Of a stretch of 64,000 nucleotides of DNA, positions 179-10,274 are shown one piece after another. The DNA is from Lachnospiraceae bacterium. Lineage in GTDB: Bacteria > Bacillota > Clostridia > Lachnospirales > Lachnospiraceae. A model generated the notes under the pieces. That model was given only the letters and a program-made list of their open reading frames with translations. It searched no databases and had not been told where the DNA came from. The translations under genes were made by a program, and so were the position numbers. How positions within the stretch are numbered: the stretch's first letter is position 1; each line of letters starts with the position of its first letter. The stretch is from the NCBI GenBank assembly GCA_022510665.1, contig JAFLSZ010000001.1, forward strand, positions 1 through 64,000, read 5' to 3'.

Positions 179-1654
179 TTATGGCGAGAACTCTACCCTT
201 ATCTTTTTCGACCGGATTTCTCCCTTGGAAAGCAAGACAACCGTCTCCACATGCCCCGTCCCCGGAAACATATCCACCGGACAGACCTTTTCCACTTGGT
301 AACCTCTTTCCTGCAACGTAACCAGGTCACGCTGCAAACTGGTCGGTTTGCAGGAAATATAAATCAAATGCTTTGCACCGTAGGCAATAATCTTTTCCAG
401 TGCTTTCGGGTGAATACCGTCCCGCGGCGGGTCTAAGAGAATCAAATCCGGACGTTCCTCTATGGTGTCTAATACTTTTAAAACGTCGCCCGCGATAAAT
501 TCGCAGTTGGAAAGCCCGTTGTCCTTCGCGTTTTCCTTTGCCGCCTCTACCGCTTCTTCCACGATTTCCACGCCGATTACCCTGCGCGCCGCCGATGCCG
601 CTATCTGCGCGATGGTGCCGGTGCCGGTGTAAAGGTCAAAGACAAGTTTTCCGTCCGTCTCTCCGATAAACTCCCTGACGGTGCCGTAAAGCACTTCCGC
701 ACCAAGGGAATTGGTCTGGAAGAAAGAGAACGGCGTAATCCGAAAGCGCAGTCCCAAAAGTTCCTCGTAAAAATGATCCGTTCCGTAAAGAACCGTCGTA
801 TTCTCGCTGGTTACCACATCCGCAGGGCTGTTATTTCTGCTGTGAAGGATTCCCGCAATCTTCCCTTCTAGCGGCAGTGCCGACAGCCTGTCACAAAGAT
901 TTGTAAAAAATTCCTCCTCACAAAACGCCGTGGTTTTTACCGCCCCGGCGCAATATGTCTTTGTATCGGAGCTCGTCACAAGGTTTATTAAAATCTCTCC
1001 GGTCTTTTGTCCGCGGCGAATCACAAGATGCCTGAAATATCCCGCGTGGGTAATTTTATGAAAATGCGCAAGCCCCGTCTCCTTTGCCAGCGCAAGAACC
1101 TCCCGCAGAATCAGGTTATAATCCTCATGGACAATCCGGCACGTGTCCGTTGTCAGGATATCATAAAAACTACCCTTTTTATGAAGTCCCAAAGCTAACG
1201 GTCCGTCTTTTCGCTCGTTTCCGAAAGAAAACTCCATTTTATTCCGGTAGCGCTCCGGCTGCGGGCTTCTGCGAATCGGCATAAACTCATACGGTTTTGT
1301 AATCACGGCGTCCATTAACCGCCTCACCTGCTCTTCTTTCAAGGCAAGTTGCGCCTCATAAGGAAGGTTTTGGCAGGCACAGCCGCCGCAGTTTCCAAAC
1401 AACGCGCACGGCGCATCTATTTCCTGCGGCGCACGCAAAAGCACCTCAACTAAACGCCCTTCTGCCTTTTTACTGCTTTTATGAAGTTTGGTTGCGCGAA
1501 ACCTGATTTTTTGTCCCGCCAGTACCCCCTTTACCGTCACACGGATTTCCGCGTCGGCGCTGTCTTCCCCGCTCTCCGGCACAACGCGCACCAGACCCTT
1601 ATTCGGAAAATCCACACGCTCCACCACGCCGATATATTCCATTCCTTTTTTCAC
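179..1654 (-). CDS. rlmD: 23S rRNA (uracil-5-)-methyltransferase, RlmD/RumA family (TRAM + Fe-S + SAM-MTase)
   Basis: TRAM-like N-terminus, CALFGNCGGCACQ Cys cluster, DLYTGTGTIAQ, LDPPRDG and ISCKP motifs. The ORF is open to 1675, but GAGGAG-6nt-GTG supports a start at 1654. Confidence 0.9.
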   Translation of the reverse strand: MKKGMEYIGVVERVDFPNKGLVRVVPESGEDSADAEIRVTVKGVLAGQKIRFRATKLHKSSKKAEGRLVEVLLRAPQEIDAPCALFGNCGGCACQNLPYEAQLALKEEQVRRLMDAVITKPYEFMPIRRSPQPERYRNKMEFSFGNERKDGPLALGLHKKGSFYDILTTDTCRIVHEDYNLILREVLALAKETGLAHFHKITHAGYFRHLVIRRGQKTGEILINLVTSSDTKTYCAGAVKTTAFCEEEFFTNLCDRLSALPLEGKIAGILHSRNNSPADVVTSENTTVLYGTDHFYEELLGLRFRITPFSFFQTNSLGAEVLYGTVREFIGETDGKLVFDLYTGTGTIAQIAASAARRVIGVEIVEEAVEAAKENAKDNGLSNCEFIAGDVLKVLDTIEERPDLILLDPPRDGIHPKALEKIIAYGAKHLIYISCKPTSLQRDLVTLQERGYQVEKVCPVDMFPGTGHVETVVLLSKGEIRSKKIRVEFSP

Positions 1655-1664
1655 GTCTGTCTCC

Positions 1665-2156
1665 TCATTTAACATCTTTTCTTACACTTTTCTGTATTCT
1701 ACAATCATTTTGCCATACTTGTTTCAAATTATCACCTTTTTCGTAATCATATACATAGACTATTTCATCCTCGTAATCATTCTTGCCGCCTAATTTTTCA
1801 TATACATGACAAGCTCTTGAATTGCCTTTATCAGTTATAATAAACATTTTAGAACACCCCATCTTTCTCGAATATTCCTTTATAAATGATAATAAACTTG
1901 TACCATATCCTTTATCTTGATACTTAGACAACATTCCTATTGAATGTAAATAAAACATAGTTTTTCCATCAGGTCTTAATAAGGTATAACCATACGCAAA
2001 ACCTACAAGTTTGTCCTTTTCTTTAGCAATAAATCCATAAGTATTTTCATTTTGAATAAAGTTTTTTATATAATCTATATTAAAAATCATATTATCATCA
2101 TTTAATACATTTTCCATTAGCTCTAATTCTTTTTCTTCTAACAACTTGTATTCCAT
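1665..2156 (-). CDS. GNAT family N-acetyltransferase
   Basis: LHSIGMLSKYQDKGYGTSLLSFIKEY (acetyl-CoA binding Q/RxxGxG/A-like) and NSRACHVYEKLGG motifs. Confidence 0.85.
   Translation of the reverse strand: MEYKLLEEKELELMENVLNDDNMIFNIDYIKNFIQNENTYGFIAKEKDKLVGFAYGYTLLRPDGKTMFYLHSIGMLSKYQDKGYGTSLLSFIKEYSRKMGCSKMFIITDKGNSRACHVYEKLGGKNDYEDEIVYVYDYEKGDNLKQVWQNDCRIQKSVRKDVK
1671..1720. repeat. 50-bp direct repeat, copy 1
   Basis: aacatcttttcttacacttttctgtattctacaatcattttgccatactt; matches 3041-3090 at 49/50 positions. Confidence 0.95.
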
Positions 2157-2241
2157 AAATCATATTTCTCCAACTACGTTAAATACTTTTATTATATAGA
2201 CAAAATCATATAGAATATCTTTTTCTTATTAGTTATAATGA

Positions 2242-2520
2242 TTATTTCTCGTAAAATCCTTCTTGGCTGTAAGAAGCCCATTTTAAATACATCTCTTGAT
2301 AATTCTTTTTTATAAAACTTTGTATTTTCAGTATCTCCCTGTCATTTAATAGTCCTCTATTTTGGGGTACTGTATCTCCATTTTCTTTTACAAAAAATTT
2401 AGCAGAACCCGTTTCTGTTAATTTTCTGTCACTTGCATGAACATGCATACACTCAATAATACAATGTGATGTAAAATATAGGTAATATCCGGCAACCTTA
2501 TATTCATAGTATTTGGGCAT
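2242..2520 (-). CDS. DUF4160-like protein
   Basis: MPKYYEY…FTSHCIIECMHVHAS…SAKFFVKENG…NRGLLNDREILKIQSFIKKNYQEMYLKW fits the DUF4160 pattern (HVHV…AKFWLEP…N.G….EL..I…I..N….W). Confidence 0.65.
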   Translation of the reverse strand: MPKYYEYKVAGYYLYFTSHCIIECMHVHASDRKLTETGSAKFFVKENGDTVPQNRGLLNDREILKIQSFIKKNYQEMYLKWASYSQEGFYEK

Positions 2521-2521
2521 A

Positions 2522-2743
2522 TTATTCCTCCATAAATTCCTGATTATTATTTAAATAATTTATTACAATTTGAATTTCTATATCATCCATACTTGTTTCC
2601 AGCACTTTCCCAGATTTATCTACAACAACTGATTTGTCTGTATTATTTAAATTTAAAATCCTTATAAGCTCATTTTCTTTTGTAAAAGCATAACCGTTAA
2701 TAATCATATCTGCCTGATCGGCAACTTTCATAAAATCAATCAT
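2522..2743 (-). CDS. Small conserved-looking protein, unknown function (73 aa)
   Basis: Complete ORF tightly packed between its neighbours in the same operon. Confidence 0.6.
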   Translation of the reverse strand: MIDFMKVADQADMIINGYAFTKENELIRILNLNNTDKSVVVDKSGKVLETSMDDIEIQIVINYLNNNQEFMEE

Positions 2744-3008
2744 ATAAAATCCTCACTTTCTCTATTGGCTTTAAAAAGTCATCAATGTCAAAATAAAGAG
2801 ATTGTAGTATAGGAACTAAATCTATATACTCTTCCTCCTCTTTATCATTATGGAAATATTTTGCCATAACTACCAGGTATCCCTTATCCCATTCTTTTAT
2901 TTCCGTATATCTTTCCAATGAATAAGGTGCAAGGAATCGGATTATATGTTTTCCATATTTAAAAATTGTATATCCTTTATCATGACACAATATTGCTTCG
3001 TTTGACAT
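2736..3008 (-). CDS. Small protein of unknown function (90 aa)
   Basis: ATG at 3008 preceded by AAGGAG; 8-bp overlap with the next ORF. Confidence 0.65.
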   Translation of the reverse strand: MSNEAILCHDKGYTIFKYGKHIIRFLAPYSLERYTEIKEWDKGYLVVMAKYFHNDKEEEEYIDLVPILQSLYFDIDDFLKPIEKVRILYD

Positions 3009-3040
3009 AATATGAACTCCTTCCTGCCTTTTATTCAAAT

Positions 3041-3090
3041 AACATCTTTTCTTACACTTTTCTGTATTCTACAACCATTTTGCCATACTT
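3041..3090. repeat. 50-bp direct repeat, copy 2
   Basis: aacatcttttcttacacttttctgtattctacaaccattttgccatactt. Confidence 0.95.
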
Positions 3091-3095
3091 ACCCA

Positions 3096-3166
3096 AAACA
3101 GTCAAGCCTGTATCCTTACAATACAAAACAGCCAGGTCTGTATCCTTACGTTACAAACCTGACTGT
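3096..3166 (-). terminator. Terminator of the ABC exporter operon with a tandemly duplicated 30-bp 3' arm
   Basis: Minus strand ACAGTCAGGTTTGT…ACAGACCTGGCTGT TTTGT (14-bp stem with two G·U); a 30-bp unit is repeated at 3096-3125 and 3126-3155. Confidence 0.75.
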
Positions 3167-3184
3167 CTGATTGTATACGCGGCT

Positions 3185-4975
3185 CTATGCCGTATATTTT
3201 CCCGCCTGCGCGTACCACATTTCGGCATACTTTCCCTGTCTGCTCAAAAGTTCTTCGTGCGTTCCTTCCTCAATAATACGCCCTTTTTCCAACATTAGGA
3301 TACGGTCCGCGTCCCGTGTCGTGGAGAGGCGGTGGGAAATGTAGAATACCGTTTTGTTTAATGCCGCCTCGTGCATCGCCTTGTTTAAATTATACTCCGC
3401 AATCGGGTCAAGGGCGGAAGACGGCTCATCCATAATCAGGATATCCGCCTGACGGTAAAAGGCCCGCGCAATCGCCACTTTCTGTCCCTCTCCGCCGGAA
3501 AGGTTGACGCCCTTTTCGTCAAATTCCGTAGTAATCTGGGTGGAAAGCCCCTGCGGCAGACTCGAAAGACGCTCCGAAAACCCGCTGCGGCACAGCGCTT
3601 CGGTTACGGCTGCCTCTTCCGCCGCGCCGTCCCCTACATCATTTAATATGACATTTTCCAAAAGGCTCACGCCGTACATTTTAAAATCCTGAAATACAAC
3701 ACCCACCCTTTTGCGATAATCCGAAAGCAGGTATCCGTCAATATTATTTCCATGGTAGGAAATGCTTCCGGCGCTCGGATCATACAGACGCATCAGAAGT
3801 TTAATCAGCGTTGTTTTCCCCGCGCCGTTATAACCGACAATCGCCACACGCTCTCCCGGCTCTACCGTTAAGCTGATATCATGCAGGATTTCTTCGGAGT
3901 CCTGCGTATAACGGAAAGATACATGGTTCAGCTCCAAACGTCCCGTTCCTTCCGGTACGGCCTCGCCGACATCCTGTTTTATCTTAGGCTCATAGGCAAG
4001 GAAGGTTCTGATTGTGTCAATATACAGGCTGTTTTCGTTTGCCTTAGGCCCGATTTCCGCCACACCGCGCAGACCGTTACGCAGGCTTCCGGTCCGGTTA
4101 AACAGTACGACCGCGTTGCTGTAATCAATGGTATGAAACACCGCTGCCTGTAAAATCAGGTATCCCACAAACAAACCGTCCGTAATAAAATCGGTCGCGC
4201 AGTAATAACGAAGAAACGAAAGCCCTACCCGCTTTCCGGAAATCTTTCTCTGCTCCTCCGCAATTTCGTCGTTTGCCTGCATAAAATCTTCTTTTACTAT
4301 TTTCGCCACTTCCGGATTTAAACGAAGTTCCTTCGCGTAGTCGTTCAAATAAAACACACGGCCGGCGTAGTTTCGTTTCCGCTCCCACGGATTGACTTTA
4401 AGCCTCACATCGTAATTCAGCTTGTTTATCTTCTTGGAAAGGAAGAAACTCAGTACAAAGGACGCCGCCACAAATAAAATACTGGCCGAATTAGTCATTA
4501 AGTAAAATACGCCGGTACTGAACACAATCGTAAGGCTCTGTACTACGGAGTTTAAAAAGGTTAAAAAGCGGTCAATGGAAGTTTCCGCCTCTGCCACCGC
4601 AAGGACAAACTCATTGTAATATTTCGGGTCGTCATAACAGGAAAGGTCAAGCTGAGCCGCCTTTTCATACATCTTTTCCTTTAACGCCCGATAAAGTTTC
4701 GGTTTCGCCCGATATGTCATGGCATGAATAAAATAACCGTCCGGTATAATCTGAATCATATTAACCAGCAGAATCGCACCGATTCCAAGCAGCGCCTTAT
4801 AAAACGGTTCTCCGTACTCCGCGCAGTGCAGCACATAACGGATACCGAGCGTATGCTCTAAGAAAATAATAATCTGGTAACGGAACGCGTCGTATAAATG
4901 GTAAATCATATATCCCGGCGCCGTCTTAAAGCAAAGCTTCCATAAAAACAAGTGATTGCTCCATACACGTTTCAT
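3185..4975 (-). CDS. ABC transporter, ATP-binding/permease fusion (exporter half)
   Basis: N-terminal TM domain; Walker A GYNGAGKTT, signature LSGGEGQK, Walker B ILIMDEPSSALDP, H-loop ISHRLST. Confidence 0.92.
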   Translation of the reverse strand: MKRVWSNHLFLWKLCFKTAPGYMIYHLYDAFRYQIIIFLEHTLGIRYVLHCAEYGEPFYKALLGIGAILLVNMIQIIPDGYFIHAMTYRAKPKLYRALKEKMYEKAAQLDLSCYDDPKYYNEFVLAVAEAETSIDRFLTFLNSVVQSLTIVFSTGVFYLMTNSASILFVAASFVLSFFLSKKINKLNYDVRLKVNPWERKRNYAGRVFYLNDYAKELRLNPEVAKIVKEDFMQANDEIAEEQRKISGKRVGLSFLRYYCATDFITDGLFVGYLILQAAVFHTIDYSNAVVLFNRTGSLRNGLRGVAEIGPKANENSLYIDTIRTFLAYEPKIKQDVGEAVPEGTGRLELNHVSFRYTQDSEEILHDISLTVEPGERVAIVGYNGAGKTTLIKLLMRLYDPSAGSISYHGNNIDGYLLSDYRKRVGVVFQDFKMYGVSLLENVILNDVGDGAAEEAAVTEALCRSGFSERLSSLPQGLSTQITTEFDEKGVNLSGGEGQKVAIARAFYRQADILIMDEPSSALDPIAEYNLNKAMHEAALNKTVFYISHRLSTTRDADRILMLEKGRIIEEGTHEELLSRQGKYAEMWYAQAGKYTA

Positions 4976-7928: not shown

Positions 7929-10274
7929 ATGAAACGTCTTTTTTATTCCGGAATTACAAAAGTATGGCTGGCAGTTCTTCTGCTGTTTTCTTCTATTTCC
8001 GCCGTTTCTTACGGTTTTCTTGCCCTGCGCGCTCCCGTTCTCTACCGGAACACGGAGAACGTTTATTCCACAAAATGGTTTTCCGAACTGTTCTCCAAGT
8101 ATGTCGAGCGTACCGCAGTCTATGTGCGTTATCTGGAAGACGGCTATTCCCTGCACTCCACAACGCTTGACCCGCAGTTAGAACTGCTTTTAGAAGGGGA
8201 AACCGCCAAAACCGATTTGGAAAACGCCCTGAGAAACGTCTATGAGCCGAGCGAAACCGCATTTTATTACTACTACTCAAAACTCAACAAAGAACCGACG
8301 AACTACCAGTATTATGTAAAAAATACCGAAACCGGTACGGTCTATGCTTCCAAAGACTTTGAGCGGTATGCCTGCGAAAAAAGCGGAAGTCTGGACGCGT
8401 TCCTTTCCAATGGCATTATTTCCGAAAATCTTTACCTGATTTTAAATACACAAAACAACCGTACCATGACCGGCGGCGGAAACAACGATGTTTTAAACCG
8501 TTCTACCCTCCTTTGGTCCATGGACTTTTTACGTCGCCCTCTTTCCGACATGGCGGAAGATGTTTATTATAAGTATAACTATCAGACAGACATCTCCTAT
8601 TCGAACAAAGACAGTGCGGAAATGAGTGAGACGGACTATCTTCATTCCGTTTCCGACCAGACTTACTTAGATAAGAACGACATTACCGTAAATGAATCTG
8701 TCAAAAATTCGCCAGCCGGAACCGTCGCTCCGGCCAGCCCGCCGAAACATTCTTATCTTTTGTACGCATTCATCGCGGACGACATTGCCGAAGACGGCTT
8801 TTCCGCCCTGTCCGCAAATTTCAACAGGGCCAAGGAAGACTACCGGCATTGTCTTAAATATGCCATCCTTTTCACACTGACAACTATCTTTCTGTTTTTT
8901 TGCTGCCATGCGGTATCGGGCAGGCAAAAGGACGGAACCGAGATACGCCTGCACTTTTACGACCGGATTTTTACGGAATTTATTCTCGCGGCGCTTGCCG
9001 GCCTTTTTGCACTGCCGTTTCTCTTATTCAGTTTTCTGCAGCCGTTTTTCACGAAGTTTATTATAAATTACCCGCTCCATTCCGAATGGATTCCTGCCAT
9101 TCTGGGAGGCTTTGCCGTGTTCTTTATCCTCGCCGCCATTCTCTATTTCAGTTTGGTTCGCCGGATAAAAGCAGGAACCTTTTTTAGCAGTTCCCTTCTG
9201 GGACGGTTTATTCTTGCGCCGTTAAAATGGCTGTTTTCCTTGGTTTTTCTTAACTTAAAGGAATTCTTCACCTCGCTTCCGACGCTTTGGAAAACACTGT
9301 TACAGCTCTGCGCCGCCGCTTTATGGCTTTTGATTTCGATACTGTTTCTTTTTGACAGTTCTTTTTTCGGCGTACTGCTGCTCTTTTTCGGTGCCTGTTT
9401 CTGCGCCTTTTTGTGTCTGCGGAACGCTCTGGACCATACACGCATCATTCACAGCACGGAAGAAATGGCAGGCGGCAATCTTTCGGCGCGCATTTCGTTA
9501 AAATCCATGCTGCCGTCCAATAAACGCCTGTCGGAAGACATCAACCATATCTGTGACGGACTGCATTTCGCGGTAGAAGAACAAACAAAAAGTGAGCGTA
9601 TGAAAACCGAATTGATTACCAATGTATCCCATGATATCAAAACGCCGCTCACTTCTATTATCAACTATATTGAACTGATTAAAAACGAACTGCCGGACGA
9701 AGGCACGGTCGCGGAATATGCGGAGATTCTTTCCCAGAAATCGTGGCGGTTAAAAGCCTTAATTGACGATCTGGTAGAAGCCTCCAAAGCCTCCTCGGGC
9801 ACGATTAAACTGGAACCAATCCGCTTTAACGCCGTGGAACTGCTCCGGCAGGCAGTCGGTGAGTTCGAGGAACGCCTGACGGAACGCAACTTGAAAATCT
9901 GCATGACGCTTCCGGATACCCCGGTCAACGTCCTCGCGGACGGGGACTGCACCCACCGCATTATTGAAAACCTGCTCTCCAATGTCTGCAAATATGCCCT
10001 CTCCGGCACAAGGGTATTTATTACCCTTGACCTTCCGGAAGGCACGGGAGTGATGCTTCTGACAATTAAAAATACTTCCGCGGCGATTCTTTCCAAAACG
10101 CCGGAAGAACTGTTGATGCGTTTTTCCCGCGGAGACGAAGCGCGGTCCGACGAAAGCAGCGGCCTCGGTCTTTCCATTGCCGAAAGTCTTGCCAGTTTAC
10201 AGGGCGGCACGTTCTATGTAGAAACGGACGGAGACCTGTTTAAGGCAAAGCTGACGATTCCGCTGGCAAAATAG
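7929..10274 (+). CDS. Sensor histidine kinase, multi-TM
   Basis: ITNVSHDIKTPLTSIINYIEL H-box, DGDCTHRIIENLLSNVCKYA N-box, SSGLGLSIAESLA G-box. Confidence 0.93.
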   Translation: MKRLFYSGITKVWLAVLLLFSSISAVSYGFLALRAPVLYRNTENVYSTKWFSELFSKYVERTAVYVRYLEDGYSLHSTTLDPQLELLLEGETAKTDLENALRNVYEPSETAFYYYYSKLNKEPTNYQYYVKNTETGTVYASKDFERYACEKSGSLDAFLSNGIISENLYLILNTQNNRTMTGGGNNDVLNRSTLLWSMDFLRRPLSDMAEDVYYKYNYQTDISYSNKDSAEMSETDYLHSVSDQTYLDKNDITVNESVKNSPAGTVAPASPPKHSYLLYAFIADDIAEDGFSALSANFNRAKEDYRHCLKYAILFTLTTIFLFFCCHAVSGRQKDGTEIRLHFYDRIFTEFILAALAGLFALPFLLFSFLQPFFTKFIINYPLHSEWIPAILGGFAVFFILAAILYFSLVRRIKAGTFFSSSLLGRFILAPLKWLFSLVFLNLKEFFTSLPTLWKTLLQLCAAALWLLISILFLFDSSFFGVLLLFFGACFCAFLCLRNALDHTRIIHSTEEMAGGNLSARISLKSMLPSNKRLSEDINHICDGLHFAVEEQTKSERMKTELITNVSHDIKTPLTSIINYIELIKNELPDEGTVAEYAEILSQKSWRLKALIDDLVEASKASSGTIKLEPIRFNAVELLRQAVGEFEERLTERNLKICMTLPDTPVNVLADGDCTHRIIENLLSNVCKYALSGTRVFITLDLPEGTGVMLLTIKNTSAAILSKTPEELLMRFSRGDEARSDESSGLGLSIAESLASLQGGTFYVETDGDLFKAKLTIPLAK

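Follow-up and report, generated by a model that had tools for sequence, protein, structure and literature searches.

How did four AT-rich genes come to lie between two nearly identical copies of a 50-bp sequence, directly in front of the 23S rRNA methyltransferase gene rlmD of a Lachnospiraceae bacterium? The locus is situated close to the beginning of the 64,000-nt stretch of DNA that we analysed (the window). A preliminary description of this DNA had offered two origins, a mobile cassette inserted with its end duplicated or a recombination between tandem 3' ends of genes.

The direct repeat and the rlmD leader

Read along the minus strand, the order is the ABC exporter gene, a hairpin-like region with a 30-nt tandem repeat at 3094-3153, the first copy of the repeat, the genes for DUF7724, DUF7723 and DUF4160 (hereafter the trio), a GNAT acetyltransferase gene that ends inside the second copy, and rlmD (Table 1). 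The ORF list gave four ORFs between the repeat copies, all on the minus strand. As noted in the preliminary description, no transposase or integrase was found among these four genes, and the insert is richer in A/T than its surroundings, with a GC content of 0.25-0.28 inside the cassette and 0.45-0.52 in the flanks.

Table 1. Features of the locus, in minus-strand order (window coordinates)
Feature	Position	Strand	Basis
ABC exporter gene, upstream neighbour	3185..4975	-	ABC_tran match; shared synteny with rlmD in seven congeners
Repeat and hairpin region after the exporter, with promoter-like TTGACT-17-CAAAAT (3105-3077)	3077..3170	-	Sequence, tandem repeat, promoter scan
Right direct-repeat copy (rlmD leader copy, now ahead of the trio)	3035..3090	-	Repeat match; relation to the C93 relic
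DUF7724 gene, first of the trio, ATG at 3008	2736..3008	-	PF24849, E=6.8e-44
DUF7723 gene, overlapping DUF7724	2522..2743	-	PF24848, E=2.3e-32
DUF4160 gene, toxin-family candidate	2242..2520	-	PF13711, E=1e-7; PMC8198452, PMC12724237
GNAT acetyltransferase gene	1665..2156	-	PF00583; 69% identity to the GNAT before aac(6')-Ie-aph(2'')-Ia
Left direct-repeat copy (rlmD leader), running into the rlmD ribosome-binding site	1665..1720	-	Sequence, repeat match
rlmD (23S rRNA uracil methyltransferase), likely GTG start at 1654	179..1654	-	PF05958; ORF

Positions 1671-1720 and 3041-3090 were confirmed to be identical at 49 of 50 positions; when extended to 1665-1720 and 3035-3090, the copies agree at 53 of 56 (95% over 56 nt), with a spacing of 1370 nt. 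The whole window was scanned for direct repeats at a fixed threshold (score of at least 34, spacing 0.3-8 kb), and this pair was the only one obtained. The preliminary description had advised looking for more copies of the 50-mer, and no third full copy was present in the genome. Since the pair stands alone at the threshold and lacks a third genomic copy, a chance repeat was ruled out. The repeat gave no match to a structured RNA in Rfam and no convincing match on phages, plasmids or IMG/VR contigs that would make it an attachment site; there was no tRNA near the locus to serve as an insertion target, and no inverted repeats were detected at the cassette ends.

The left copy runs directly into the ribosome-binding site GAGGAG and the likely GTG start of rlmD, and the repeat is therefore the rlmD leader, not the 3' end of a gene or the end of a cassette. 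This copy overlaps the mechanically assigned start of the rlmD ORF (ATG at 1675), and the GTG behind GAGGAG is likely to be the real one. The repeats had been described as bracketing four genes; four ORFs do lie between them, but the left copy is itself part of the GNAT gene and encodes its last ~18 codons.

A promoter-like TTGACT-17-CAAAAT stands just ahead of the right copy, with its second box within that repeat. In the promoter scan, matches were no commoner here than in shuffled sequence, and the motif is no more than suggestive of a promoter. The ATG of DUF7724 is found 26 nt past the right repeat and has a ribosome-binding site, with no space left for a promoter of its own, so that the former rlmD promoter probably drives the trio and GNAT.

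Beyond the other end of rlmD, the start of the contig (window 102-190) is an apparent insertion-sequence end, which adjoins rlmD and probably replaces its last codons. The stretch 113-190 was found again at 85-90% identity in several genomes of the family, often at contig ends, with one further match (80%) in the genome itself. We also noticed short copies of the rlmD 3' end (window ~227-280; up to 98% over 47 nt) apart from the full gene in other genomes; they may represent copies of the attachment site of elements whose target is the 3' end of rlmD.

The exporter-rlmD junction in related genomes and in a paralogous relic

The exporter and rlmD genes were neighbours on one contig in seven of nine congeneric genomes, and in the remaining two the contigs break off too soon. 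Neither the cassette nor the leader repeat occurred in any of the nine, where the only matches to the insert were 70-84 nt long at 74% identity. The site between the two genes varies in gene content within the genus: it was geneless in G001, in which the genes nearly abut, and in G007; a gene for a SpoU methylase was found there in G009, and G002, G003, G004 and G006 had an Acetyltransf_3 gene with a normal GC content, which was also present in G005, after rlmD. None of these other occupants was flanked by the leader repeat found here. When the search was widened with the exporter protein as query, it again gave these members of the genus and no closer genome.

The preliminary description had named vertical inheritance of all four genes in relatives as the outcome that would speak against it, and this was found in none of the nine congeneric genomes. 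As for the empty site that it advised looking for, exporter and rlmD without the cassette were present in seven congeners, with differing contents between them, and an empty site with a single leader was seen as a paralogous one in the genome itself.

This site is the decayed 5' part of a second rlmD copy on contig C93 (C93:17253-17556), which has one shortened leader, joined to the rlmD start on one side. The conserved part of this leader is identical to the right copy at 22 of 24 positions and to the left copy at 21 of 24. Past the leader, the relic matches the outer right flank of the cassette at 18 of 26 positions as against 10 of 26 for the cassette interior; of the 127,974 26-mers of the window, three reached 18, the site itself included. 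Since a single leader is joined there to sequence resembling the outer right flank, the paralogue shows the insert-free arrangement, as a paralogous and not a same-species empty site with a shortened leader. The relic adjoins a gene resembling LL-diaminopimelate aminotransferase and a helicase gene with a PLD-like start.

The two parts of the cargo

The trio is an operon of fixed order, with overlapping or abutting genes, and its distribution in the family is patchy: DUF7724 was present in 24 of 250 sampled family genomes, and all three genes occurred together at 15 of the 26 other loci examined, in unrelated neighbourhoods. At none of these 15 loci was a close relative of the GNAT found nearby. 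Direct repeats are not a property of the trio, for the 26 regions gave only one long repeat (L081; 77 bp, 6 kb apart), paralogue duplications (L083) and two weak, short cases (L077 and L089). At L081, in genome G144, the two 77-bp copies (2598-2674 and 8611-8687) enclose ~6 kb of small genes that include the trio; the repeated sequence forms the 3' end of one gene and is found again ahead of a second one. At L042, L082 and L089, the trio was seen in type I restriction loci beside HsdS and/or a XerC-like recombinase, or fragments of them. No phage carriage of the trio was found in IMG/VR. Two GenBank 'Bacteriophage sp.' entries with DUF7724 (MT835787 and MT837901) have it beside RNase R/SmpB-like or other bacterial genes and look like fragments of bacterial chromosomes.

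The PF13711 match of DUF4160 is above the curated cut-off. Proteins of this family, for which there is experimental support as toxins, act together with DUF2442 antitoxins in Dickeya (DhiTA; PMC8198452) and on Thermus plasmids (PEM; PMC12724237). Here the partners of DUF4160 are DUF7723 and DUF7724; there was no adjacent DUF2442 gene and no DUF2442 match in the genome, and a shallow profile-profile comparison of DUF7724 and DUF7723 with DUF2442 was negative, so that the trio does not fall within the DUF4160/DUF2442 family. Neither DUF7724 nor DUF7723 resembled a known antitoxin or matched a PDB sequence. The structure model of DUF7724 was confident (pLDDT 93.8), although the fold comparison against the PDB gave no significant match for DUF7724 or DUF4160, and a literature search on DUF7724 found nothing. 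The trio plausibly acts as a toxin-antitoxin-like module with DUF4160 as the toxin and DUF7724 and/or DUF7723 as the antitoxin, which we rate as an even chance, and it can be flagged as a widespread candidate operon of this kind.

The GNAT shows 69% identity to a protein whose gene stands ahead of aac(6')-Ie-aph(2'')-Ia on hundreds of plasmids from enterococci and staphylococci and is also carried by some phages. Its best relatives among 397 genomes of the family reached only 37-43% identity; the chromosome of a gut Lachnospiraceae is thus home to a close relative of the GNAT known from Tn4001 clusters. At the DNA level, homology to the resistance-cluster gene reaches GGTGATAA at the stop codon of the latter and then breaks, ~10 nt before the repeat. 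The GNAT gene in the window is without its native stop and continues for ~20 codons through the junction and the left repeat, ending at a TGA that overlaps the rlmD ribosome-binding site. This homology to the resistance cluster, together with the unrelated contexts of the trio in which no close GNAT was found, means that the cargo consists of two parts with separate, unlinked origins. A close GNAT relative was also seen in the Streptococcus suis '_rum' prophages H27, H30 and H32, whose names point to integration at rum, a gene of the rlmD type. This link is probably a coincidence, because the site here is the leader.

Origin of the insert and comparison with known systems

It is very probable that a foreign segment was inserted into the rlmD leader. 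A ~1.3-kb AT-rich piece with the trio and GNAT would have entered it just past the exporter gene, and one ~50-bp leader copy would have remained on each side. The GNAT stop is missing, and neither a recombinase gene nor terminal inverted repeats nor a phage or plasmid counterpart of the repeat was found. This speaks for joining by recombination that was homology-assisted or illegitimate, such as the integration of a circle with a leader copy by one crossover, without a dedicated cassette recombinase; the chances of this particular route seem evenly balanced. Transcription of the promoterless trio operon, and of GNAT with it, would start from what was once the rlmD promoter, and rlmD itself would be expressed by read-through or from the leader that it has kept. 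Rare excision or amplification is possible between repeats of 50 bp, and the two leader copies would allow such events in a RecA-dependent manner. With a single mismatch in 50 and a foreign base composition, the insertion looks fairly recent, in agreement with the preliminary description. Of the two origins proposed there, the mobile cassette stands as far as an acquired insert without its own recombinase is concerned (absent from nine congeners, at a variable junction, with the relic on C93), but the target, the rlmD leader, was doubled and not the cassette end. Recombination between tandem 3' ends is not supported: the repeat is a leader, and the sole gene 3' end involved, that of GNAT, has no native stop at the junction.

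Alternatively, the nearly identical direct repeats of ~50 bp on either side of the compact cargo could be attL and attR of a small element without an integrase, moved in trans by an unrecognised recombinase; rumA, the E. coli-type homologue in the gene family to which the leader belongs, is indeed known as a target of integration (PMC5704250). We regard this as unlikely: the known rumA elements lie inside the gene and not in its leader (PMC5704250), no sequence corresponding to the repeat was found on phages, plasmids or IMG/VR contigs or at other places in the genome, and the other trio loci are mostly without such repeats. A purpose-built cassette would be expected to carry its gene whole, and the lost GNAT stop, besides the lack of an integrase in the insert, counts against one. 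The broader idea that the 50-bp leader is a site for an unrecognised trans-acting recombinase, which moves small toxin-antitoxin-like cassettes into the leaders of housekeeping genes so that the cargo captures the promoter and the host gene keeps a leader, appears highly improbable.

The unrelated origins of the cargo parts and the frequent changes at the exporter-rlmD junction in the genus would also suit an older tandem duplication of the leader, between whose copies the trio and GNAT arrived separately. Such a history is improbable as well, since it requires two separate arrivals exactly between the leaders, both cargo ends abut the repeats, and the copies differ at just one of 50 positions. 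That unrelated metagenome fragments were joined in the assembly, a draft of 136 contigs, is extremely unlikely, as the GNAT frame continues across the junction into the leader, contamination is estimated at 0.2%, and a 50-bp repeat is normally resolved by sequencing reads. The best explanation as a whole, and one that we consider reasonably probable, combines leader insertion, foreign cargo, promoter capture and retained leader copies. As we read it, the locus reflects horizontal acquisition of an ordinary kind, apart from the unusual length of the flanking duplication, and is a clean case of a promoterless foreign operon in a gene leader, with the host gene unbroken, both leader copies kept and the empty arrangement preserved in a relic on another contig of the genome.

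In comparison with composite or unit transposons, the four genes include no transposase, the ends have no inverted repeats, and the duplication of ~50 bp is not short. The insert lacks the integrase gene of an integrative element (IME, ICE or prophage remnant); its flanking direct repeats might derive from an attachment site, but they gave no counterpart on phages, plasmids or IMG/VR contigs. The integrative and mobilizable elements at rumA (PMC5704250) are likewise inserted at a gene for an rRNA uracil methyltransferase of the rumA/rlmD type; they have a serine integrase and lie inside the gene, whereas the site here is the 5' leader. Like the DhiTA and PEM modules, the trio is a compact operon whose small genes overlap and include one for DUF4160, and its distribution is patchy, although DUF7724 and DUF7723 replace DUF2442, without detectable similarity to it, and DUF4160 comes last and not first. 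Tn4001-type clusters are similar in their GNAT, 69% identical and with DNA homology up to the stop codon. In contrast to these clusters, the GNAT gene here is chromosomal, without flanking IS256 or IS257, and is followed not by aac(6')-Ie-aph(2'')-Ia but by the rlmD leader and rlmD, and with its stop lost its C-terminus is extended through that leader.
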